IMG/VR virus record: IMGVR_UViG_3300030117_000955 | Location: 1 to 21,725 of that record | DNA length: 21,725 bases | DNA from: a virus | Direction: 5' to 3' (one strand) | In this document: positions 4,250-15,943 of the stretch, piece after piece | Layout: each line of letters opens with the position of its first letter | How positions within the stretch are numbered: the first letter of the stretch is position 1 | Notes under the pieces: model-generated | Database searches by the model: none | What the model was told of the DNA's origin: nothing | The model's input: the letters and a program-made list of their open reading frames with translations, nothing else | Translations under genes and position numbers: made by a program

Positions 4250-4471
4250 ATGGACGCTTCAATCATCATAGACACTCTTCTAGGTATCGTCCTTGTTGGC
4301 ACCGGGTATTTTCTCACCTCTTTGTCAGCAGAGGTAAAGCGTATCGACATCTTGTTGAACCGCACCCGCGAGGATTTTGCCACCAAAAAAGAACTACAAG
4401 ATAACATGGACAGAGTGATGGAAGCTCTCCACAGAGTAGAGGATAAGCTAGATCGAGCTTTAAGCAAGTAA
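4250..4471 (+). CDS. Small membrane protein, holin-like (putative)
   Basis: The 73-aa protein has one N-terminal hydrophobic segment (about residues 4-24, IIIDTLLGIVLVGTGYFL) followed by a charged, helical, probably coiled-coil tail ending in RVEDKLDRALSK. This topology is shared by small phage holins and holin-like or ejection-associated proteins near tail genes. The next gene also encodes a single-segment membrane protein, and the two could work together. No endolysin or second spanin component is visible in the window, so a lysis role is only an inference. The gene lies two bases after the previous stop. Confidence 0.6.
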   Translation: MDASIIIDTLLGIVLVGTGYFLTSLSAEVKRIDILLNRTREDFATKKELQDNMDRVMEALHRVEDKLDRALSK

Positions 4472-4472
4472 C

Positions 4473-4943
4473 ATGGAACCGATAACGACTGCATTAACAG
4501 GTTTGGCTCTGGTTCAAAAAAGTGTGGGCTTTATTAAGTCTAATATTGCTACAGCAAACGACATCAAAGATATTGCAGATGCCATTGACGGACTTTTTGC
4601 AGGAGAGAAACAAGTGCAACAAGAGCGTTTCGGCAGCAAAAGTCTGATAGGGCAAACAAAGGATGTTGCCAGCAGTGTTATTGACTCTAAACTAGCGCAG
4701 GAACAGTTGGAAGAGATAAGTATTTTGATTGACAATCGTTTTGGATACGGCACGTGGAGACAGATCGTCAACGAACGTGCCAAACGCTTGCAAGAAGAGA
4801 AAGAGCGTATTCGAGAACAAAACCGCGAGAAGCGAAGAAGAAAAGAAGAGATGGCTGAAATTTTTAAAATCGTCGGATTTACTGCTCTTGGTATTACAAC
4901 GATTTTATTTATAGCAACTATTTGGTATTTAAGGTATGGTTGA
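4473..4943 (+). CDS. Membrane-anchored coiled-coil protein of unknown function
   Basis: This 156-aa protein has a helical N-terminal half, a strongly basic helix at about 100-127 (RAKRLQEEKERIREQNREKR and on) and a single C-terminal transmembrane segment at about 133-152. The tail-anchored layout with a basic stalk suggests it sits on the inner membrane with the stalk in the cytoplasm. Similar proteins next to a short holin-like gene occur in other marine phages, with unknown role. The start lies one base after the previous stop. Its end overlaps the next gene by eight bases. A lysis or DNA-ejection role is possible but not shown. Confidence 0.6.
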   Translation: MEPITTALTGLALVQKSVGFIKSNIATANDIKDIADAIDGLFAGEKQVQQERFGSKSLIGQTKDVASSVIDSKLAQEQLEEISILIDNRFGYGTWRQIVNERAKRLQEEKERIREQNREKRRRKEEMAEIFKIVGFTALGITTILFIATIWYLRYG

Positions 4944-6516
4944 ATCAACAAATATCACTGACTACACTCAGTATGAGGAAGGATTTAGACAGTACCAACA
5001 ACAAAATCCATTACCAAAAGACCAATTCTATATGACTGTGATGGAAACATTTCCGGGAGGTTTTACTACTTCTAACAGCGGTGAATCTGGTCAATTTAGA
5101 GACTACTTAAAAAGTATAGGCGTTCCATTACCAAATAATGCACCTACCCCAATACCTGAAGGAACGAAACAAAACGTGTCACAAGCAAAAAACATAAAAG
5201 ACTCAAGAGAACAAGCAGCAGGTTTAAAACCGGGAGTTACTCCTGCTCTACCTGAGGGCACCGCTATTGATCCTAAAGATATTCTTGTAACTCCAGAAAC
5301 GCTGGTGTCAAAACAAAGACCTGACTTAGAAAAAAGTACATTACAGGCAGAAGTAGTAGATCCTGAAACCATAGTAGATGTTGCACCTCCCTTAGTAAAA
5401 GCTGCAGAAAAGTACACGGCACAAACTATAGATGACACTCCTGTAGGAATTGCTGCTCAAGGTAAATTATCTTCAGAAGCAATCATAGGAGATATACAAG
5501 GTTCCGTATCTCAAGACTCCCTAGCACAGGCTGCAACAGGAGAACTTGACGAGAGGGCAACTGTAAGATACCAGATAGGTGAATTATTTAAGTCCTTTGA
5601 GGAGGGCAAAGAACCTCCTGCATGGGCTAGTCCTGCCATTCGTGCAGTAACAGCCCAAATGCAAGCAAGAGGGCTTGGTTCCTCTTCTATGGCGGCTGCA
5701 GCCATAACACAGGCGATAACGGAAGCAGGCATACCGATTGCTAAAGCAGATGCAGATAAGTATTCACAGATACAACTTGTAAATTTAAACAATCAACAAC
5801 AAGCTGTGCTACAAAATGCTGCTACTTTTGCAGCTATGGACAAAGCAAATCTAGATGCTAGGATGCAGGCAGCAGTAAATAATGCTAAAGCTTTCTTGTC
5901 TATAGATTTACAAAATTTACAAAACCAACAAAAAATATACGAGCTAGATTACAGCGGAAAGTTACAAGCTTTGTTTAAAGATGCTGCTGCCGAAAATGCG
6001 GCTCGTCAATTTAACGCTGAGTCTCAAACACAAGTCAACCAGTTTTATGATACTCTTAGCACTAGCTTAGAAGAGGCAAACACTTCCCGTCGTTTAGCAA
6101 ATGAACAATTTAATGTATCTGCAAAAAATGCTGTTAATCAGTATGTACAGTCTTTGAATGATGATAGAGAACGGTTTAACATAAGTTTAGCTCAACAGAT
6201 AGATCAATCAAACGTGCAGTGGAGAAGAGATACCACGACGGCAAACACAGCCGCTGATAATGAAGCTGAGAGAATAAATGCACAGAATTTGTTAAACTTA
6301 ACTCAGCAAGCACAAAGTCAATTATGGCAAAAGTACAGAGATGACGCAGCATGGGCTTTGCAGTACGCAAATTCAAAAGAAATGAGAGCGCATCAAATTG
6401 CTTTGTTGGCTATGGAACAAGCGGGTAATGCGTCTATGTTTGAAGATCAAATGGAGTATGACGCTATATCTACGTTAGGCACAGGCTTGATGATAAAAGT
6501 GTTAGGTCTCGGATAG
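4936..6516 (+). CDS. Putative internal virion protein (helical, Ala/Gln-rich)
   Basis: The 526-aa product has a Pro/Thr-rich N-terminal half without obvious domains. Residues ~210-520 form a long Ala/Gln/Asn-rich helical region (AAAAITQAITEAGIPIAKAD, then many Q/N-rich heptads) with a short hydrophobic C-terminus. Long helical, low-cysteine proteins at this position, after the fibres and before very large genes, are typical of the internal core or ejection proteins of T7-like phages. No catalytic motif is visible. The ATG overlaps the upstream stop by eight bases, and the AAGG directly before it is too close to be a good binding site, so translational coupling is likely. Confidence 0.65.
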   Translation: MVESTNITDYTQYEEGFRQYQQQNPLPKDQFYMTVMETFPGGFTTSNSGESGQFRDYLKSIGVPLPNNAPTPIPEGTKQNVSQAKNIKDSREQAAGLKPGVTPALPEGTAIDPKDILVTPETLVSKQRPDLEKSTLQAEVVDPETIVDVAPPLVKAAEKYTAQTIDDTPVGIAAQGKLSSEAIIGDIQGSVSQDSLAQAATGELDERATVRYQIGELFKSFEEGKEPPAWASPAIRAVTAQMQARGLGSSSMAAAAITQAITEAGIPIAKADADKYSQIQLVNLNNQQQAVLQNAATFAAMDKANLDARMQAAVNNAKAFLSIDLQNLQNQQKIYELDYSGKLQALFKDAAAENAARQFNAESQTQVNQFYDTLSTSLEEANTSRRLANEQFNVSAKNAVNQYVQSLNDDRERFNISLAQQIDQSNVQWRRDTTTANTAADNEAERINAQNLLNLTQQAQSQLWQKYRDDAAWALQYANSKEMRAHQIALLAMEQAGNASMFEDQMEYDAISTLGTGLMIKVLGLG

Positions 6517-6526
6517 GAAAATAAAA

Positions 6527-7048
6527 ATGGAATTTTTAGAAAACTTAGGTAAACAAGTTTATAGCGGAGTTTCTACAGTAGGAGAGTACATATCAGACAC
6601 CTACGATTCTGCTGTAAATTTTTTGTTTGGATCTAGTGGTTCAGGTTCAGAAACTAGTCTTGGAACCAGTATTAAACAGGGATTTATTAGTGGAATTACA
6701 CAAGATCTTATGTCCAGCCCAAGAGCTATAGGTCAAATTGGTGCGAAACCAACAAGAACTAACACTCAGGCTAGAAGTGATCTTGACACTGGTTTGACCC
6801 AACGAACACAAAATCCAAGACCTACCCTCTCCCCAATATCTCAACAGGCTCTAGTCAACATCTATAACAGAAATAATTTTACGATTGCAAAACAGTTTCA
6901 ATTAGCAGGAAACCGTGTAAAACCTACACTTAGAGCAGCATCGCCGCCTCCTCAGAATCGCGCTGTTAAAAACATTCGCACTCCCGGAGCAATTAAAACT
7001 AGCCGACGACGCGCCTATCAACCCAACATTTATAAAGATGAAAACTAA
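6527..7048 (+). CDS. Uncharacterised virion-module protein
   Basis: This 173-aa protein has an N-terminal helical, mildly hydrophobic segment (MEFLENLGKQVYSGVSTVGE), a Gly/Ser linker near 36-42 and a disordered, basic C-terminal half rich in Arg, Pro, Asn and Thr, ending in a very basic stretch (KTSRRRAYQPNIYKDEN). I do not recognise a family. The basic tail could contact packaged DNA, which would fit the internal-virion gene block around it, but this is inference. The ribosome binding site is AGGA about 9 bases before the ATG. Its stop shares one base with the next ATG (TAATG). Confidence 0.6.
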   Translation: MEFLENLGKQVYSGVSTVGEYISDTYDSAVNFLFGSSGSGSETSLGTSIKQGFISGITQDLMSSPRAIGQIGAKPTRTNTQARSDLDTGLTQRTQNPRPTLSPISQQALVNIYNRNNFTIAKQFQLAGNRVKPTLRAASPPPQNRAVKNIRTPGAIKTSRRRAYQPNIYKDEN

Positions 7049-7671
7049 TGCTTGAGAAAAAACAAGATCGTTTTATTGAAAGCGCAGGGTATGACCCGAT
7101 GATGCGCCCACCTCCGGGGCACAGCCTAACTTTGCCGCCGGGTAATCAGCCTTACGAACAACCCCCAAAGTTTAGTAAATCGTCTGACTTCATAGAACAT
7201 ATTTTTGATAAGTTTCAAATTCCAGAGAACGAAGCTGAACTAATGAACAGTTTAGCTGTAGGTATAAGCTTGCAAGAAATAGTTCAAGCAATAGGTCTAG
7301 GGGCTTTTACCACTGGGCTTGCTAACCCTGATGTTGTTGAAAATTCTAAACCAGAAATATTTGTTAACTTACTCTCACAAGCTATGGATCTTTTTGATAT
7401 TCAAGAGGATAGCCCCATACCATTTAAACTTTTTGCTACTCCCTCTGGTTTAGCAGAAGAAGAACAAACTATGGATGATCTAACCGCAATACAGATGGCT
7501 AAGAAAAGAAATCCTAGAGGATATGCTGTTTTTGAAGAAAATCAAAAGGCAGAGCAACAAGAAAGAGATATGCAAATGGTGGAGCAAATGGCTCAAGATC
7601 TAGATCAGTACAAAACTGAAACCAAAAAATCAGGAGGCTTTTTAGATGTAGAAAGCCCGGAAGAGGCGTAA
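7048..7671 (+). CDS. Conserved structural-type protein with PGxSLT/PYExPP motif
   Basis: The 207-aa protein carries RPPPGHSLTLPPGNQPYEQPP at residues ~20-40 (PGHSLT and PYEQPP are the key parts), followed by a compact helical domain (IEHIFDKFQIPENEAELMNS to GLANPDVVE). I associate this PG-S-L-T / P-Y-E-P-P layout with conserved virion proteins of several marine phage groups, whose role is not known. The C-terminal third is acidic and helical (QKAEQQERDMQMVEQMAQDL). No good ribosome binding site is visible, and the TAATG junction suggests reinitiation from the 173-aa gene. Function beyond a likely virion role cannot be stated. Confidence 0.6.
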   Translation: MLEKKQDRFIESAGYDPMMRPPPGHSLTLPPGNQPYEQPPKFSKSSDFIEHIFDKFQIPENEAELMNSLAVGISLQEIVQAIGLGAFTTGLANPDVVENSKPEIFVNLLSQAMDLFDIQEDSPIPFKLFATPSGLAEEEQTMDDLTAIQMAKKRNPRGYAVFEENQKAEQQERDMQMVEQMAQDLDQYKTETKKSGGFLDVESPEEA

Positions 7672-7675
7672 CACT

Positions 7676-9895
7676 ATGGGAGCCAATATAGTAGCTTTAG
7701 CATTGATGAAAGGGCTAGGGACTGCACTGGCTTTTTCAGCAGAGGCAGATGCAAAAGAAAGAGAAACAGCAAGAGCCGCTACGGCTGCCGATGATAAACA
7801 GAGAACAGAAATGGCAATTGCTCTTGGAAAAACTCATATACAGAATGGTTTAAACAGTCCTATTACATTTACCAGAAATCTAGCAACTGATTTAGGATTT
7901 GAAAATCCAAATGCGCTTTTTCCTGTTAAAGGTTATGAACCTGCTGTTATTCAAGATTCTAGTTTACCGGGAGGTGGAGTATCCTTTTATTCCGCGCCTG
8001 ATAGAAACCTTTCATCCGATGCGTATGCAGGTGCCGTTGTTAACAATCTAGAACAAAGGAGAGTTGATGTATCGACAGGCGTACCAATGCTGCAACCGTT
8101 TCTTGCAGAAACGTATTACATGTTTCAACAAAACAAACAAATGCGTGGAGAAAACGATCCTCTCACTAAAAAATCTGCAGCCCTCTACAACCAACTTAAA
8201 ACACAACATATATCAGAAATAGGAACTATTATAAACAAACAGATTCAAGAAGCTGGTAATATTGCAGGTGAAAAAGGGCTTGCCGCATCCCCGTTAATTC
8301 CAAGTTTTAAATCTGATTCGGGTATAATGAGAGCTATTTCTGTATTACCTCAAGCAGAAGTTGAAGAAATATTTTTGGAATCATATAACTTTGCCGCTGG
8401 AGAAACAGGCTTAAATCTTTCAAAAGAATATTACATACCCACAGTAGATGACCTTACACTTATACGGTCAAAATTTGGATTAGCCACACCCGCTGAATTG
8501 TTTGAATCAATCACTGTTCAAGAATTAAGAGGTGGTCCTATTTCTTCTAAACAAGTTGAAGAGTTTAAAAAACAAACAAACGCGCAGGGCTTTACAGGAT
8601 CAGACTCTACCCTATCAGTAAACAGCAAAATACTTCTTGCTAACCGACTTGCAGAAAAAATACCTCAGATTAAAAATGCAGAAATGGGAGCTACTCTCAT
8701 TAACGTGTTGGGACTAATGCTTGCTCCAGAAGGTAATCAAAGAGGCATATTAAATATCTCACAAGCCGGGAACGAGTTTGATTTATTTACAGATTCTACT
8801 GCACCTCCTATTGTTTATGGGGGTACAACTTATGATGAAAGTTACCTTAGAAAGATTATTCCAATGTTTAATGATGTTGAAGAGATAACTGGAGGGCAAA
8901 TTAATTTTGTGGGTAGGGATCTTCTAATAGGTGTAATTGCTTCGCATCTAAAAAAAGATTTACTTGAGACGGGGACTGTAGGACAAATGTCCAGAGATGC
9001 AACCAGTCAAAGTGGCACATTCTTGAGCAAACTTAGTATTAGAAAATCTTTTGACGGACAAACCTCTAATTATGCTACTTACAGCTTAATGAGAGAACAG
9101 AGCAATAAGGCGTTTGCAACTTTAAGTAATATAGAAGGTCTTACTAGAATGGCTGTACAACGGCAAGAGGGCCAACTTCCAGCCAATGTGCAAGCCCCTG
9201 TTTTTGGATTTGTTGGATTTCTTACTTTGACTCTTGAAGGTGCAAAATCTCAAGTGCAGGCCGCAAAAAATAATCTCTTTGTTTTTAAAGATAAAGAAGA
9301 CGATAGATTGTTTGACTACATGGCTTCAACCTACACAAGAACAAGCGAAGATATACCTTCTGTATCAAGCTTTCTAGGACCGGATGGACAAGTAGACATT
9401 ACCAAATTAACCTCTGCACAGCAAACTGCGCTGCTTAGATTTCTAGCGGTTCAAGCTGTGTATCAAATGGCTAGAAGTTTGGAAAATCCTACCGGAGGTG
9501 GTGCCCGTCTTTCTGAACGAGATATTAAAAATATGGAAGAAGCTTTTCAATTAGGATCAATGACAGATCCTAGACAATTTCTTGCTGTTATAAACTACGC
9601 AATGAAAGAAACTAAAATAAGAAAAAGATACTTAGATTCACAGGCTAAATACAGAAGCCAACCTTTTCACGCTCTTGCAAACGAAGTGATTAATCAAAGA
9701 GAAGGCAACCTCATAGACTTTAGCCAAGCTCAAGAGACCAATGCTACTGATCCAAATAATATTTTTAATTACGCAGTATCGCAAATAAAAAAGGATTTTA
9801 AAGCAGGTGTTGCATCGCCCACCGCGCCTGATACTTTGTTTAATAATGACGAGCTTGATGCACTAAATAAAGCACTATTTGGGTCAACAAGCTAA
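7676..9895 (+). CDS. Large uncharacterised protein, probable internal virion protein
   Basis: The 739-aa product begins with a mildly hydrophobic stretch (IVALALMKGLGTALAFSA) and then a charged helix. The remainder is mixed alpha with few cysteines and no recognisable catalytic motif. It lies between the 207-aa protein and the 1892-aa giant, with a one-base overlap to the latter (TAATG). Size, order and low cysteine content match the second of the two or three large internal or ejection proteins of podoviruses, by analogy with T7 gp15. Sequence similarity to T7 gp15 is not visible by eye. GAGG lies about 10 bases before the ATG. Confidence 0.6.
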   Translation: MGANIVALALMKGLGTALAFSAEADAKERETARAATAADDKQRTEMAIALGKTHIQNGLNSPITFTRNLATDLGFENPNALFPVKGYEPAVIQDSSLPGGGVSFYSAPDRNLSSDAYAGAVVNNLEQRRVDVSTGVPMLQPFLAETYYMFQQNKQMRGENDPLTKKSAALYNQLKTQHISEIGTIINKQIQEAGNIAGEKGLAASPLIPSFKSDSGIMRAISVLPQAEVEEIFLESYNFAAGETGLNLSKEYYIPTVDDLTLIRSKFGLATPAELFESITVQELRGGPISSKQVEEFKKQTNAQGFTGSDSTLSVNSKILLANRLAEKIPQIKNAEMGATLINVLGLMLAPEGNQRGILNISQAGNEFDLFTDSTAPPIVYGGTTYDESYLRKIIPMFNDVEEITGGQINFVGRDLLIGVIASHLKKDLLETGTVGQMSRDATSQSGTFLSKLSIRKSFDGQTSNYATYSLMREQSNKAFATLSNIEGLTRMAVQRQEGQLPANVQAPVFGFVGFLTLTLEGAKSQVQAAKNNLFVFKDKEDDRLFDYMASTYTRTSEDIPSVSSFLGPDGQVDITKLTSAQQTALLRFLAVQAVYQMARSLENPTGGGARLSERDIKNMEEAFQLGSMTDPRQFLAVINYAMKETKIRKRYLDSQAKYRSQPFHALANEVINQREGNLIDFSQAQETNATDPNNIFNYAVSQIKKDFKAGVASPTAPDTLFNNDELDALNKALFGSTS

Positions 9896-12800
9896 TGAGT
9901 CAACAAGATATAAAACCAATAAACGAACAGGCTATCGACTTGGGACTGCCCGGATCTTCTAGGGTTCAAGTAGCTAATACTCCTATTGGACAAAGAGGAG
10001 GGCTAACGGAAAAAGATCTTGAGGAGGCAGCACAAGATAGAGGTGTGTCTGTTGACCAACTAAAAGCCACTTTAAGTGAAGCGGGCGTTCCTGTGCAACC
10101 TGTCACAGAATTAGAAGCCCCGGTTCAACCCCCGGAACAGCCTGTTGCTAGTTCCGAAGTAACTATACCCGTGAAAGAAGAGGTTGAAGATTTAGGTTTG
10201 ACACCACAGGAGGCTGAAAGCGTAGGCGAGGGCACAACGACTGTAGCTAGAACTCCTGAAGGAGCAATAAATCTTACAGAGGTAAACCAAGCTTCTATGG
10301 TGCCAACTTTCCTTCCCTTTCCTAGTGATGACAATAGAGATGCTGCTATAGCAAAAACTTTTGGTCAAATACCGTATGAAGAGATGTTTATGGATCATCC
10401 AAAAAATAGAGGTAAGACAGAACTAGAACTAGCAGATGAACTATTTGATATATTCTATGCAACTGGCAATCCTGAAAACGATATTCCTATGAAGGAAAAA
10501 ATGTTTTACCACGCGACAGGGATGTTGTTTGAAAGGAATATGGTAGAAAGACACTATCATGGTGCTGGTTCCGTTAGATTAAACCAGTCTTTAGACGATA
10601 CACGCCCTAGACTTAAAGGCATGGTTGTAAAAGTCAAAGATCCTCACAACGCTGGTCAAATGATACCTGTAATAAATTTTAACCATGCGATAAAAAATGG
10701 TGGAGTAGCTTTCTGGGACGCAGTGCAAGAAACTCCGACAAGTGATTATGAAATTAAATTAGTTAAAGACATGACTCCTCTTCAAAAAATGAGAATGAGA
10801 ATCTTGAATGACGGAATAGCTGATGTAGTTCCAGATGTGAGTCAAAAAGGAGTTATTAAAGACAGGGTGTATACTGGCAGAGGGCGCGAAACTGGTCTTG
10901 AAAGACACGGCATAACCCCTGATGATTTGGTCACAACAGGCGTTTACTCCGGTTATAATCTCCAAAATTCCAGCAACCAATTAGCGGGTGTTTCGTTTTA
11001 TGAAAACCCTAATTCCTTGTCAGGGTATAGCGTTGCTGTAGATGAACATCTGGGAGTTATGAAAACATTAGGTAACGTGGGTATTTCTTTAACTAACACA
11101 GTCGCAGAAACTTTTGGTTTCAACCCGGACTTACCAGAATTTCAACCTGATTTAAGAGTCACTCAAGATCCTCAAGCAGTAGACTTGATGAATGATCTAA
11201 TAGACTACGACATAGGGGTTAATAATCTTAACAGATTTATGAGACGTTTAGACGACGGTTTAAAATCTGATTTAACCTTTTATAGCGTTACAGATTCTTT
11301 TAGGTTCGCTTTTAACTTTGCGTCAAGAACTCAAATATTTCCCCTTCGTATACCTGAAGGTGAAAAAACAGTTCGTCCGATTATGCCGGGAGGTGTTCAA
11401 GCTCAAGGACCATTAACTGAAGAAGACCTTGAAAAACAAAAAATCATACATTTAAACACAAATAAAGGAACAAGAAATTACTATAACATTGGAGATCTTG
11501 TTGCTGGAACGGCCATATTTCTAACGATGGCTAAAAACTATCCTTTCCAAGTATTTGGAAAAGAAGTAGAACAGCCTGACGATTTTATGTTTTATGACGG
11601 ACAGTTCTTTGACATGTCTTCGGAGAAAATGGCAGAAATACTGGATGTCCCTAAAGAAGAAATAGAAGATAAGATTCTTACTCATCCAGCACTAAGCACA
11701 TTTTTTACAAGAGCAAAAGAGGAGGTTGCTTTAGCAGGTGGGATTGTCGTTAGCCTTCTTTTAATGCGAAGACAGTATGGAAAAAAGATTGTTAACGATG
11801 CTATTGACCGCCTAATGAAATCAGGACGATCCAAAAACAGAGAAGAAGCAATACTCACTCTTGATAAAAATAGGGGCTTGTTTAATACATTACGTGATGA
11901 CATCCTTGAGGAAGCTAACAAGGGTAGATCAATTATAAACGCAATACCGTTTAGAAGAAGAATTGCAGACTCGTTATCAAAAGGTAACACGGATCTTTAC
12001 TTGTCTACAACTGGCCCTGTCCGAAGAGCAAGGCTAGAACAACACGCAAAAGTAGCAGAAAAGCGTATAACTGATATCGACACTCAAATTCAAAACGCCG
12101 CTAACACAGCACAACTTAGAGCTTTACAAATTCAGAGGGCAGAAATTCAATTGAGAAATGCCAAAGATAGAGCCGTAGCTTTTATTGGTCCTGAATTAGT
12201 AAAAGAACTAGGAGTTGAATCGGGTGTTATAATAGGTGCCGCTGCCGTTCCAGAGTATGTTGCAGAAACATTATTTAGTGACACAGGTCAAAACCCTATA
12301 TGGATAGTAGGAGGAGGCATAATGGGGGCACTGTCTGCTCCTAAGGTGTTTTCAACAGCAGGTGACCTTGCATATCATGCTATAAACATTCCTTCTGCAG
12401 TTTTAGGTGAAGTATTAATATATGGTGGTTCATTTGCAAAAGATAGTTTTGCTGCAACTAGATTAAAAGCGGGAACCGAAAACCCTGAAGAATTATTAAC
12501 AGAAATACGAGACTTTTACGATAAAATTACAAGCAATTTTACACCTGAAGAATTAAAAAATTTAGAGGAGTATGCAGCTAACTTAATAGATCTTGAGACT
12601 AGACTGCGAGAACAAGGTATTCTTGCACCCTTAGATCCAAACAATCCAGATCCTGTAGGTGCCTCTGAAGTTCCTGTGTTGTTAGGGGATCTGTTAAAAT
12701 CAATGTGGTTACAAAATGCCGGGAACCAATTAGCAGTAAGAGGAATTAGCGAAACTGATGTTATAAAATACAACAAAAGTTTAAATGCAGAGGGCACCCT

Positions 12801-15573
12801 TGTTCAACAAAGAAGACAGCTACTCGTTAATATAGCTCAAAGATTAGAAAAATTTCAAGCTGTAGATATTCGTAGATTAGAGGGAGAAGACTCTGTAATC
12901 ATGCAAGAGTTAAGCACTTTAGCAACTCAATTAGAAAGAGATTTACAAGAATCTGAAGCAAGCTTTAAAGCTGCAAAAGATACCATATCAAAAGCACTTA
13001 AAAATTATTTAGAAGACGGAGAAAACCTGTTTACAGATTCTGACAACCCAAACAGTGTTCGTCAAATGCTCTTTGACATAGACGAAAGTTTTGAGGAAGA
13101 CATGCTTAGATTAAGTCTTGAAGGAGACTCTCAAAGCATTTTACAGTTAGGAGATGATCTTGCAGAAATACACGAAGCTAGACGGCTTGGCCTTGAAGCA
13201 CATTTTAATCGTGCAGAAGAAGGACTAAGACCCGTAGGTACAGAGTCCAGCGAAAGATTTTTTGTTGGTGAGTTGCAACACCGCTACGCTAACGGAAGAA
13301 GAGAACTTTCTGACTTTTACTCTGGTATAACTGAAAATTTTGGAGATATATCTGCTGATTACACTGAGGAACTAACTAGTTTGTTGCAACCCGGAGCAGA
13401 GGGAAGACTTTTATTTCCAGAACTGTACATAGACGACGCAACAAACAATGCAATACGGTTAGGCACTAAATTCCCTAAAGGTAGAGAAATGGCTGCGGTG
13501 ATTAACGGCAGTGCTACTAGATTTTGGGACAGAGTATTTACACCAAATGATGATTTTAAGAACCCAAGCATGTTAATTAAAAACACTATGAGTGGTTTGG
13601 GATTGTATGAAAGACTTAATATTCCAGAGTACACAGGTAAAACTAATACAGAAGCATTTATGTGGACTCGTAACTTTTTTGAAAATGTATCAGATAATGA
13701 TTTACGAGCATTGGCTGAGGAAGAGCCTAGTATCATACCGTTTTTACAAAATTTAGGATTTACACAAACCACAAAACAAACTCTTGAAAATTCTGTTACA
13801 TTAAATTTAAGACCTCTAGATATAAACATATTGCACCAAAATTTAAATAAAGCACGGGGTAAAGACCCAACTCAAAACTTTATGTTGGGACAGATTAAAG
13901 AGCAGTTGCTAGATCCTAGAAAAGTTTTTTACAGAAATCAAGGCTTACCAAATCAAGAAGTGGTCGAGACTGGTGCAGATGGTATGAACTTTAATGCAGC
14001 CTACAGAAAAGGTTTAGATGAATTGGTAATTCCTTTTTATGACACGTTCTCTGATCCAAGAATATTAGAGGCTGCAAGCGGAAATCCTAACACGTATGAC
14101 TCGTTAGGTATTTTTACAGACTTCTTAAAAGATCTACACAGTAAAAGATACGTAGGTGCAACCGCTGCTGATGTTCAAGACCATGTAATGAACTCTGTTG
14201 TAAAACCATTTACTGACATATTCGGAGAGTATGATCCTGTTACTAAAAAGAAATACATAGTGGCAGGTTCTGAAAACGCCCGGTTATTAACAGCTTTACT
14301 GACCGATCATTTTGCAAGTATACACTTAGATGAAAACTTTGGTGTTATTAAAGATGCAGGTTTAGGAATAGTTCCGGCAAAAATTAACATAAAAAATACA
14401 AATCTTGGTCCTATGGAAGTTTTGTCTAGGGTAAACTATTACGTAAAACAAGAAGTCACAGACGCAGATGGCAAAACAAAAATTGTATATGTCTCTGATC
14501 CAAGCTCTCCCTTAATAGACAAAGAAGCTATAACCAGACCTGCAGATCTTAAATACACCAATAAAAAACTTTTGAGAAAAGGTGAGAATAAACTAGCACT
14601 AGCACTACAGAAAGCGGAAAAAGAATATGCTGCAAGGGTATTCGATAAACAACTCCTATCAAAAAATATGCTCTCCCTTCATAGAAATATCTCAGGATAC
14701 AATAAAGGTATGAGTACCTACAACCTTTACGATCTTATGAAGAATGATTTTAAAGTTTTAAATTTAGTAAACAGGGCTAGAGAACAAATGTCAATCGGCC
14801 CTCTTAGAAATGTTCCAACAGATGACACAAAGGTTTTTGAAGTCGTAACTACAGAAGTTTTCGACGAGGAAATAGCAAGTGTTCTTGCCGCAGGTGTAAG
14901 CAAAGAAATAACCAAAAGGCATACAAGTGGTATTTTAAAAGGTCAATTGTACTTGGACGATGGTCTTGTTAAACAAATGCTAACTGACCCTGAGTATGAA
15001 CCATTACGAGAGGCTTTGGAGATTTACAACCCTGAATTTATAGAATCTCTTAGAGCAATAGATGAATTGACTGACATCATACGAGTCCCGGACCCAGAAG
15101 AGGCCGGGGGACAAGTAGTTAAAAACGTAAGAAGCATAAATCTTCTTAGAGGTCTAACTTTGTTGAGAGCAACATTTGCACGTCAAATTAGTCCAACACA
15201 CATGGGTGCAGAAATACTTTTAACAAATAGTAAATACGCTGATTTTAATTCTACTGCTCAAATACTATCAAGTCCAGAAGCAACAAGAAAACTATTGAAG
15301 TACATATTAAACAATGAAGACTTGACTCGAAAAGAAGTTGATCGTCTGTCTAATTTTATATTGGTAATAGGTACAAAAGAACTTGTTAGAGGCGGCGGCG
15401 ATACTTATTATGGGGCTGATGGAACTTATAAGGGAGAAGGTTTTCATTTAGAACGAGAGCCTGAAAACATACCCTATACAATGCCTAACTCTATGCAACC
15501 AGATAATTTAGCAGAGCATAGAGCTTGGATGAAAAGAAACAACATACAAAACCCACAAGGAGCAACACAATGA
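9895..15573 (+). CDS. Giant virion protein (putative DNA-ejection/internal core protein)
   Basis: This 1892-aa product takes up a quarter of the window. The N-terminal ~130 residues are Pro/Glu/Val-rich and probably disordered. Next is a long mixed region, a hydrophobic segment near residues 610-625 (VALAGGIVVSLLLM), a basic coiled-coil-like zone (~715-765), and two further hydrophobic stretches at about 780-815 (GVIIGAAAVP and IWIVGGGIMGALSAP). The final ~1000 residues are mostly helical. Length, position after the smaller core genes and internal hydrophobic segments fit a membrane-penetrating ejection protein, by analogy with T7 gp16. I cannot find a lytic transglycosylase signature or other enzyme motif. 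The gene has no ribosome binding site and is probably coupled to the 739-aa gene. Confidence 0.65.
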   Translation: MSQQDIKPINEQAIDLGLPGSSRVQVANTPIGQRGGLTEKDLEEAAQDRGVSVDQLKATLSEAGVPVQPVTELEAPVQPPEQPVASSEVTIPVKEEVEDLGLTPQEAESVGEGTTTVARTPEGAINLTEVNQASMVPTFLPFPSDDNRDAAIAKTFGQIPYEEMFMDHPKNRGKTELELADELFDIFYATGNPENDIPMKEKMFYHATGMLFERNMVERHYHGAGSVRLNQSLDDTRPRLKGMVVKVKDPHNAGQMIPVINFNHAIKNGGVAFWDAVQETPTSDYEIKLVKDMTPLQKMRMRILNDGIADVVPDVSQKGVIKDRVYTGRGRETGLERHGITPDDLVTTGVYSGYNLQNSSNQLAGVSFYENPNSLSGYSVAVDEHLGVMKTLGNVGISLTNTVAETFGFNPDLPEFQPDLRVTQDPQAVDLMNDLIDYDIGVNNLNRFMRRLDDGLKSDLTFYSVTDSFRFAFNFASRTQIFPLRIPEGEKTVRPIMPGGVQAQGPLTEEDLEKQKIIHLNTNKGTRNYYNIGDLVAGTAIFLTMAKNYPFQVFGKEVEQPDDFMFYDGQFFDMSSEKMAEILDVPKEEIEDKILTHPALSTFFTRAKEEVALAGGIVVSLLLMRRQYGKKIVNDAIDRLMKSGRSKNREEAILTLDKNRGLFNTLRDDILEEANKGRSIINAIPFRRRIADSLSKGNTDLYLSTTGPVRRARLEQHAKVAEKRITDIDTQIQNAANTAQLRALQIQRAEIQLRNAKDRAVAFIGPELVKELGVESGVIIGAAAVPEYVAETLFSDTGQNPIWIVGGGIMGALSAPKVFSTAGDLAYHAINIPSAVLGEVLIYGGSFAKDSFAATRLKAGTENPEELLTEIRDFYDKITSNFTPEELKNLEEYAANLIDLETRLREQGILAPLDPNNPDPVGASEVPVLLGDLLKSMWLQNAGNQLAVRGISETDVIKYNKSLNAEGTLVQQRRQLLVNIAQRLEKFQAVDIRRLEGEDSVIMQELSTLATQLERDLQESEASFKAAKDTISKALKNYLEDGENLFTDSDNPNSVRQMLFDIDESFEEDMLRLSLEGDSQSILQLGDDLAEIHEARRLGLEAHFNRAEEGLRPVGTESSERFFVGELQHRYANGRRELSDFYSGITENFGDISADYTEELTSLLQPGAEGRLLFPELYIDDATNNAIRLGTKFPKGREMAAVINGSATRFWDRVFTPNDDFKNPSMLIKNTMSGLGLYERLNIPEYTGKTNTEAFMWTRNFFENVSDNDLRALAEEEPSIIPFLQNLGFTQTTKQTLENSVTLNLRPLDINILHQNLNKARGKDPTQNFMLGQIKEQLLDPRKVFYRNQGLPNQEVVETGADGMNFNAAYRKGLDELVIPFYDTFSDPRILEAASGNPNTYDSLGIFTDFLKDLHSKRYVGATAADVQDHVMNSVVKPFTDIFGEYDPVTKKKYIVAGSENARLLTALLTDHFASIHLDENFGVIKDAGLGIVPAKINIKNTNLGPMEVLSRVNYYVKQEVTDADGKTKIVYVSDPSSPLIDKEAITRPADLKYTNKKLLRKGENKLALALQKAEKEYAARVFDKQLLSKNMLSLHRNISGYNKGMSTYNLYDLMKNDFKVLNLVNRAREQMSIGPLRNVPTDDTKVFEVVTTEVFDEEIASVLAAGVSKEITKRHTSGILKGQLYLDDGLVKQMLTDPEYEPLREALEIYNPEFIESLRAIDELTDIIRVPDPEEAGGQVVKNVRSINLLRGLTLLRATFARQISPTHMGAEILLTNSKYADFNSTAQILSSPEATRKLLKYILNNEDLTRKEVDRLSNFILVIGTKELVRGGGDTYYGADGTYKGEGFHLEREPENIPYTMPNSMQPDNLAEHRAWMKRNNIQNPQGATQ

Positions 15574-15869
15574 AGACTTACGGCAATGGCCCGAAAGGAA
15601 TGAGATACGGTGGCATGAACCGTAAGCCCATGATGTATGGTGGCGGTATAAGCGCAGGTATCAAATCCTTCAAAGGCAAGAAACCTAAAAAGAAACAAAT
15701 GGGTGGCATGAACAGCAACACCATGTCAACCGGAATGAACAAGATGCCAAACCCCATGATGGGAAAAACCATGATGGCAGGGGGCGGTAAGTTACCTATG
15801 ACCACAGTAAAAGGCAAGAAAGTTCCTTTTTTTGCTGCTGATGGAAAAGGTAAAAACGACTTAGCGTAA
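15570..15869 (+). CDS. Met/Gly/Lys-rich basic small protein
   Basis: The 99-aa product starts at the ATG overlapping the giant gene's stop (ATGA), with AGGAG about 8 bases upstream. The frame is also open to 15525, inside the giant gene, but without such a site. It holds 15 Met, 20 Gly and 18 Lys, only two acidic residues (Asp91 and Asp97) and no Cys. Short motifs recur: MRYGGM, MMYGGG, MGGM and MMAGGG. Such Met/Gly-rich basic proteins next to core genes are familiar in marine phages but have no established role. Nucleic-acid or virion-core binding is inferred from charge. It is the last gene of the plus-strand arm. Confidence 0.75.
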   Translation: MKTYGNGPKGMRYGGMNRKPMMYGGGISAGIKSFKGKKPKKKQMGGMNSNTMSTGMNKMPNPMMGKTMMAGGGKLPMTTVKGKKVPFFAADGKGKNDLA

Positions 15870-15896
15870 AAAAAAAGAAGCGAGGATAAACCTCGC
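15868..15896 (-). terminator. Intrinsic terminator of the minus-strand operon
   Basis: Read on the minus strand, a six-base stem (GCGAGG, loop TTTAT, CCTCGC; 15896-15880) is followed by TTC and nine T residues (15876-15868). This is a standard Rho-independent layout. The T run overlaps the stop codon of the Met/Gly/Lys-rich gene on the other strand. It lies about 40 bases beyond the last minus-strand stop codon. Confidence 0.75.
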
Positions 15897-15910
15897 CCCT
15901 TCAATAACAG

Positions 15911-15943
15911 CCCCGGCAGGGAAACTTGCCGGGGTTATTTTTT
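15911..15943 (+). terminator. Intrinsic terminator of the plus-strand late operon
   Basis: A perfect eight-base GC-rich stem (CCCCGGCA at 15911-15918 and TGCCGGGG at 15927-15934) with an eight-base loop is followed by TTATTTTTT (15935-15943). It lies 41 bases after the stop of the last late gene. The T tract also encodes the last Lys codons and the stop of the convergent minus-strand gene. Confidence 0.85.

Follow-up and report, generated by a model that had tools for sequence, protein, structure and literature searches.

What purpose might be served by a very small, strongly basic protein whose gene closes a phage operon directly behind a giant gene? The question is raised by the open reading frame (ORF) at positions 15570-15869 of the IMG/VR virus record IMGVR_UViG_3300030117_000955, whose 21,725 bases, analysed as a whole, are referred to here as the window. 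The ORF is a selected gene that has a fixed position as the last of a rightward operon and a strong ribosome binding site, and its product combines a constant N-terminal module (N-module) with a C-terminus that is an exchangeable module (C-module). This exchangeable C-terminus, which is the main point of the analysis, could not be seen from one sequence, the material of the first-pass annotation. We tentatively read the protein as a small, disordered, basic accessory of the ejection or tail-channel machinery of an HMO-2011-like marine phage, functionally analogous to T7 gp6.7 and gp7.3, an explanation that we regard as quite possible.

A constant N-terminus and an exchangeable C-terminus

The translation of 15570-15869 (+ strand) is MKTYGNGPKGMRYGGMNRKPMMYGGGISAGIKSFKGKKPKKKQMGGMNSNTMSTGMNKMPNPMMGKTMMAGGGKLPMTTVKGKKVPFFAADGKGKNDLA, a protein of 99 amino acids (aa). 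Its parts and the signals around the gene are listed below, with pN/pS denoting the ratio of nonsynonymous to synonymous differences per site.

15570-15869, + strand: coding sequence of the 99-aa Met/Gly/Lys-rich protein, ATG to TAA, final gene of the rightward operon; 66 distinct family proteins
15557-15562, + strand: Shine-Dalgarno sequence AAGGAG, 7 nucleotides (nt) ahead of the ATG; 53 of 56 distinct family starts strong
15570-15644, + strand: conserved N-module of 25 codons encoding MKTYGNGPKGMRYGGMNRKPMMYGG; pN/pS of 0.074 in group A and of 0.137 in group B
15645-15788, + strand: variable basic Met/Gly/Lys/Asn linker, predicted to be disordered
15789-15866, + strand: exchangeable C-module, KLPMTTVKGKKVPFFAADGKGKNDLA; AlphaFold2 strands 77-80 and 83-86, helix 87-90
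15909-15936, + strand: intrinsic-terminator-like hairpin ending the operon
15874-15902, - strand: terminator-like hairpin of the convergent operon, facing the + strand one

Relatives were gathered by scans of IMG/VR, in one of which the best 80 of 215 confirmed relatives were kept. The N-module together with the biased composition is found in 66 distinct proteins from 87 records (window included; loci L008, L009 and L013 lie outside these records), counts that are lower bounds because the N-module pattern misses variants such as MKTYHNG and MKTYFNG. The 87 records retain near-identical contigs from different samples. The pattern, MK-Y-NG..GM-YGG..RKPMMYGG, is carried by the window protein, and M1, K2, Y4, N6, G7, Y13, G14, R18, K19, P20, M21 and G46 are invariant in an alignment of 25 sequences. 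By the Nei-Gojobori method, pN/pS of the N-module is 0.074 in group A (10 distinct sequences, bootstrap 0.016-0.165) and 0.137 in group B (33 sequences, bootstrap 0.043-0.277), with at most 12 sequences per bootstrap draw; selection therefore acts on the protein of the N-module. With pS of 0.74 and 0.46 against pN of 0.05 and 0.06, conservation as DNA (for example, as a site) and a chance ORF were both rejected. Matches to the family profile occur once per record in all eight N-module records searched. In a scan of cellular genomes, just two contigs of one metagenome-assembled genome were confirmed, and these may be phage contigs binned with it; the genome is assigned to Bacteriovoracaceae, and the N-module genes (L233, L234) lie at contig ends.

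The C-termini of the 66 distinct proteins are of several kinds. The commonest is an EF-type loop, LDxNKxGxIxxxDF, which ends 37 of them (one cut short), followed by the hairpin VPxFAADGKGK in 14; the remainder comprise seven with none or another end, two with LSVxAGIDxNPNPTxADRIAG, two with a long module, and four singletons. Counted by record, the EF type accounts for 49, the hairpin for 20 and the rest for 18. The window C-module is of the hairpin type (VPFFAADGKGK), which evolves faster than the EF loop (pN/pS 0.48 against 0.18).

Replacement of the C-module between homologous DNA flanks is seen directly in three pairs, namely the window and L007, L022 and L023, and L002 and L008 (L008 begins within the gene). 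In each pair, near-identity breaks off at about the MMA(G)GG codons; the rest of the reading frame is unrelated, and similarity returns after the stop and continues through the terminator. L022 and L023 differ in their C-modules while sharing 94% identity in the 300 nt upstream. The converse is provided by L002 and L005, in which the gene and the 80 nt downstream are each 100% identical and the 3′ ends of the giant genes are 63% identical, a value typical of most pairs compared. The swapped pairs together with L002 and L005 thus indicate that the gene start and the border ahead of the C-module act as recombination joints, and the last two comparisons that the C-module and the giant gene are uncoupled.

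The EF-type loop has D1, N3, D/N5, I8 and D12 in all 36 distinct proteins with a full loop, a residue pattern like that of the calcium loops of EF-hands and type I dockerins, from which it differs in being a single loop with no partner. Dockerin loops usually have aspartate at position 12, and seawater contains calcium at about 10 mM. When a profile of ten EF-type C-ends was compared with the PDB, almost all of the matches listed (60 of 81) were EF-hands or dockerins by name (best E 0.0035), whereas under the curated Pfam cut-offs the loop fell short, at 18.9 against 25.4 bits for PF00036 and 17.4 against 22.9 for PF00404 (best of five scanned). The first-pass annotation had listed metal binding through methionine among its options; a calcium-loop-like module is present in many relatives but not in the window protein, where the EF-type loop is absent and the hairpin type stands in its place.

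The place, composition and expression signals of the gene

The position of the gene is fixed. To define genes in the loci, a greedy longest-ORF rule was applied rather than a gene finder. In all 76 records with at least 600 nt upstream (window included), a same-strand ORF ends between -17 and +21 nt from the start of the small gene; it is at least 400 aa long in 72 of them, and the shorter ones are cut at the contig end. Among the 44 complete upstream ORFs, 43 encode 1468-1895 aa and one encodes 1156. In 34 of the 76 records the giant and small genes overlap, by either 4 or 1 nt; in the window the overlap is ATGA, 4 nt made up of the start codon of the small gene and the stop codon of the giant one. 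Downstream, the opposite strand dominates the next 1.5 kb in 77 of the 77 records that extend so far (window included). All records were counted after removal of five loci inside already counted contigs (before: 92 copies, 80/80, 47/48 and 82/82). Conservation of the repeats and of the position in relatives, which had been proposed as a check, is thus borne out by 66 distinct proteins and by the 76/76 upstream and 77/77 downstream records.

The residue counts of the window protein are M15, G20, K18, N7, P7, R2, D2 and E0, giving a net charge of +18 (K+R minus D+E). This agrees with the first description of an extreme Met/Gly/Lys composition with two acidic residues, and repeats of the MYGG, MGG and MAGGG kind are present as described. 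Thirteen other + strand ORFs, taken together, contain M, G and K at 2.2%, 7.4% and 4.9%; relative to these frequencies, the binomial chance of such counts is 6e-9 for M, 4e-5 for G and 2e-6 for K, figures that are rough because the ORF was chosen for its composition. No match at E<=1 was obtained in Pfam or PHROGs, nor by tblastn against 50,697 phage records, where low-complexity filtering may mask weak ones, and no hydrophobic stretch was found. The AlphaFold2 model (25 sequences) has a mean predicted local distance difference test (pLDDT) score of 58.6 and is structured only at strands 77-80 and 83-86 and helix 87-90, the mean pLDDT being 70 for residues 71-80 and 79 for residues 81-90.

A strong ribosome binding site following a giant gene that lacks one had also been remarked upon, and the contrast extends to the family. 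By a simple motif rule made for this analysis, the giant-gene start of the window scores "weak", as against AAGGAG ahead of the small gene; among relatives, 53 of 56 distinct small-gene starts are strong, three medium and none weak, compared with 9 strong, 17 medium and 6 weak among 32 distinct giant-gene starts. Three terminator-like sites were found, against 1.0 expected in shuffles.

Modules shared with other marine-phage proteins

The C-modules and the Gly/Lys/Met-rich linkers of the window family recur in other marine-phage proteins rich in GG, which carry KVPFFAADGKGK, LSVKAGIDNNPNPTxADRIAGA or GLYANI modules but have other N-termini and other gene neighbourhoods. The DNA pattern for KVPFFAADGKGK was found in at least 120 IMG/VR stretches. 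This motif is carried by 124 ORFs from loci L001-L156 (a few of these loci overlap); M+G+K exceeds 33% in 123 of them and the N-module is present in eight, the others having differing N-termini and tails. Similarly, the LSVKAGID pattern occurs in at least 120 stretches (of 119 ORFs, 105 exceed 33% M+G+K and one has the N-module), and the EF pattern in 55 stretches with 53 ORFs, all above 33% M+G+K and 29 with the N-module pattern. In L356, the EF loop is joined to a GLYANI module (phrog_16028, E 3e-26), and a sister architecture of the L143 type contains a LysM domain (Pfam E 2.7e-13). Scans of GG-rich proteins against PHROGs and Pfam gave family matches only for their GLYANI and LysM parts.

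Several of these proteins are encoded near virion genes. Small GLYANI proteins lie between the scaffold and capsid genes in S-TIP37 and HTVC031P and between the capsid and tail tube genes in P-SCSP1o; in CRP-4, a rightward operon ends with the GLYANI protein and is followed by a convergent operon that contains ribonucleotide reductase (RNR). GG-rich proteins are accompanied by terminase and portal genes in L101 and L320 and by a portal gene in L115, L334 and L345, either as direct neighbours or at a distance of one to two genes; of ten such neighbour proteins, four have no match and one is an exonuclease. The 78 neighbours of 13 loci include major head protein, maturation protease, tail and virion structural families (25 of 43 families listed). 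A further 59 neighbours match families mostly of unknown function, along with holin, GroES, amidase, endolysin and endonucleases (25 of 50 families listed). The neighbour proteins (78, 10, 10 and 59) were hand-picked, not random.

Further architectures were observed in these scans. Proteins with MKKKGYAKGG repeats (L043, L061, L086, L143 and others) combine a PFFAADGKGK hairpin module with a stretch resembling LysM, which was compared with Pfam in L143 only, and many of them end in RGxGAAxRGKRF; in L143, PHROG matches are confined to the LysM-type and C-terminal parts. Another GG-rich type (L040, L039, L099, L116) has a conserved basic tail, (R)DGCAIKGKTKG(R). In Pelagibacter phage HTVC027P (L018), gp44 and gp47 (11998-12264 and 12854-13192) belong to a series of small genes that precedes GroES and capsid; gp44 has FPDLTGDGEVTKADILKGRGV, a dockerin-like loop with a Pfam E of only 0.28, and gp47 has a GG-rich N-terminus with a weak match (E 7).

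The phage, the upstream genes and the possible role of the protein

HMO-2011-type phages are described in PMC9038755 as dominant in the ocean and widespread there. Among 1185 records that match the window RNR, which span many groups, the best comes from Puniceispirillum phage HMO-2011, with 64.3% identity over 100%. Both the B12-dependent RNR and a tail-region protein of the window are homologous to those of HMO-2011-type phages: the 526-aa ORF at 4936-6516 matches 26 records, including HMO-2011, Roseobacter and Pelagibacter phages, all at <60% identity. Eight of eight relatives' records carrying the small gene encode an HMO-2011-like DNA polymerase (two pieces, 37-45% identity). In all eight (G001-G008), the two matching pieces are separate, and the break between them falls around residue 160-195 in HMO-2011 numbering. 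An HMO-2011-like capsid was found in five of these eight by direct protein search, one as merely a 20-residue piece at the record's end; PF11651, tried as a probe for the HMO-2011 coat, is silent in HMO-2011 itself and hence uninformative, and the direct search was used instead.

The three genes that precede the small gene are as follows.

7048-7671, + strand: 207-aa acidic gene, conserved in relatives; gp14-like in place and size, with no hydrophobic stretch
7676-9895, + strand: 739-aa gene; possibly gp15-like by place and size
9895-15573, + strand: giant gene, 1892 aa, directly upstream with a 4-nt overlap; possibly gp16-like by place and size

The first-pass annotation had spoken of a virion operon, which accords with the tail-fibre-like genes at 369-2683; the genes from 4936 to 15573, including that of the 207-aa protein, gave no convincing family match. 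The 207-aa protein has a PPGHSLT motif and is 21-33% identical to proteins of 12 relatives, being somewhat better conserved than its large neighbours. The giant proteins of fifteen relatives are 12-22% identical to the window's, the gene order in relatives is about 200/700/1600 aa, and the predicted structure of the 739-aa protein has a mean pLDDT of 44.6. At 4250-4943, two small ORFs (73 and 156 aa), each with a hydrophobic stretch near one end, are holin- or spanin-like by size only.

Podophage ejection operons, as outlined in PMC8954989, contain a gp14-like gene (181-240 aa), a gp15-like gene (431-982) and a larger gp16-like gene (609-1337), with poorly conserved sequences. The order and rough sizes of this cluster are matched by the 207/739/1892-aa genes, the third of which is larger than podophage gp16-like genes. 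The suggestion that the small protein is packaged with ejection proteins fits its place after a cluster in podophage order and sizes, but homology of the 739- and 1892-aa families to T7 gp15 and gp16 was rejected, as no sequence similarity was detectable.

The closest counterparts of the small protein are T7 gp6.7 (88 aa) and gp7.3 (99 aa), which are of similar size and are likewise single, small, Gly/Lys-containing, basic-ended proteins from the head/tail gene region; their genes lie shortly before the portal gene, whereas the window gene ends its operon after the giant gene. According to PMC11784390, gp6.7 is resolved in the mature virion chiefly as loops, and both proteins are ejected. Homology was rejected (about 1 bit), and we therefore tentatively regard the window protein as a functional analogue of gp6.7 and gp7.3 rather than a family member. 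We know of no exchangeable C-module in the T7 small proteins. Small accessory virion-region proteins are already known; a constant front with traded mini-modules is not known to us, and the literature searched, partial in coverage, held no paper describing these modules.

As an ejection or tail-channel accessory, the small protein would be made late and in high amount. Its constant N-module and basic linker would hold it in the particle through contact with DNA or a channel protein, from where it could aid assembly or exit with the large ejection proteins, and the C-module might serve as a short adhesive end. A constant end would suit a constant phage partner, and an exchangeable end a partner differing from host to host or from particle to particle. 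The conserved place, purifying selection on the N-module, single copy, HMO-2011-like lineage and ejection-like gene order all fit this role, as do the sister proteins near terminase, portal, head and tail genes and the GLYANI proteins among scaffold, capsid and tube genes of three T7-like isolates. The LysM domain of one sister architecture is an envelope-directed module, and the AlphaFold2 model, which predicts no structure beyond a C-terminal hairpin and short helix, fits a disordered accessory.

Several observations weigh against the accessory role. HMO-2011 and CRP-9 have no annotated small gene at the equivalent place, where the rightward operon stops with the corresponding large gene and annotation resumes with a convergent gene, and the family profile found nothing over the whole HMO-2011 record; the small gene is thus not essential to the group. 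The profile of 25 members scored 1.3 and 1.1 bits against T7 gp6.7 and gp7.3. Neither the 739-aa nor the 1892-aa family showed detectable similarity to T7 gp15/gp16 or to HMO-2011 gp23/gp22 (each taken as a single sequence); PHROG and PDB profile searches of both families returned weak, scattered matches, the PDB ones unusable, and the 207-aa protein lacks the hydrophobic stretch of gp14. Furthermore, no head or tail name appears among the matches listed (25 of 50 families) for the 59 other neighbours, a mixed set that argues against a purely virion-bound class of GG-rich proteins. The role as a whole is inferred from gene place and sequence.

Other explanations put the emphasis on the exchange itself. 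The gene might be the recombination slot of a two-part delivery protein, in which the N-module is a loading or ejection tag, the mini-module (hairpin, calcium loop or other) is rapidly exchanged, being drawn from a repertoire that unrelated marine phages have in common, and the conserved N-module and the downstream terminator serve as homology arms; we hold this to be unlikely. A related proposal, rather unlikely in our view, is that the N-module is a packaging or ejection tag and the C-module a swappable payload acting in the host envelope or cytoplasm, in an architecture like that of polymorphic effectors. Replacement of the C-module between homologous flanks in three pairs speaks for such a cargo, as does its uncoupling from the giant gene (63% identity upstream in L002/L005, 94% in L022/L023), but most modules are just about 15-30 aa long and those tested match no enzyme or toxin family in Pfam or PHROGs. 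Neither mark of a polymorphic effector was therefore found, neither a toxin domain in these two databases nor an immunity gene downstream, where the next 1.5 kb is convergent in 77/77 records.

A non-virion protein at the operon end, acting late in host takeover or in lysis, is improbable: its place just ahead of the terminator, the holin or endolysin families near some sister proteins and the LysM of one architecture would suit it, but other sister proteins lie near portal, terminase and head genes and the protein has no hydrophobic stretch. Condensation of nucleic acid, which the first-pass annotation had offered, is compatible with the charge of +18 in 99 aa and the predicted disorder, and no more; a basic disordered chain neutralising packaged DNA or late mRNA would by itself leave the strict N-module (pN/pS 0.07-0.14) and the shared C-modules unexplained, and we judge it quite improbable. 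We think no better of an assembly helper absent from the virion, a chaperone or scaffold for the giant protein. Translation right after the giant gene, with a 4- or 1-nt overlap in 34/76 records, and a ribosome binding site generally stronger than the giant gene's are consistent with such a helper, but identity to the window's giant protein is only 12-22% in the fifteen others compared while the N-module hardly varies, and an identical gene stands behind very different giant 3′ ends.

With its frozen front and traded end, the gene gives a concrete handle on small virion-region proteins that annotation leaves blank, and it leads to a prediction, namely that a shared N-terminal tag would load different mini-modules into virions.

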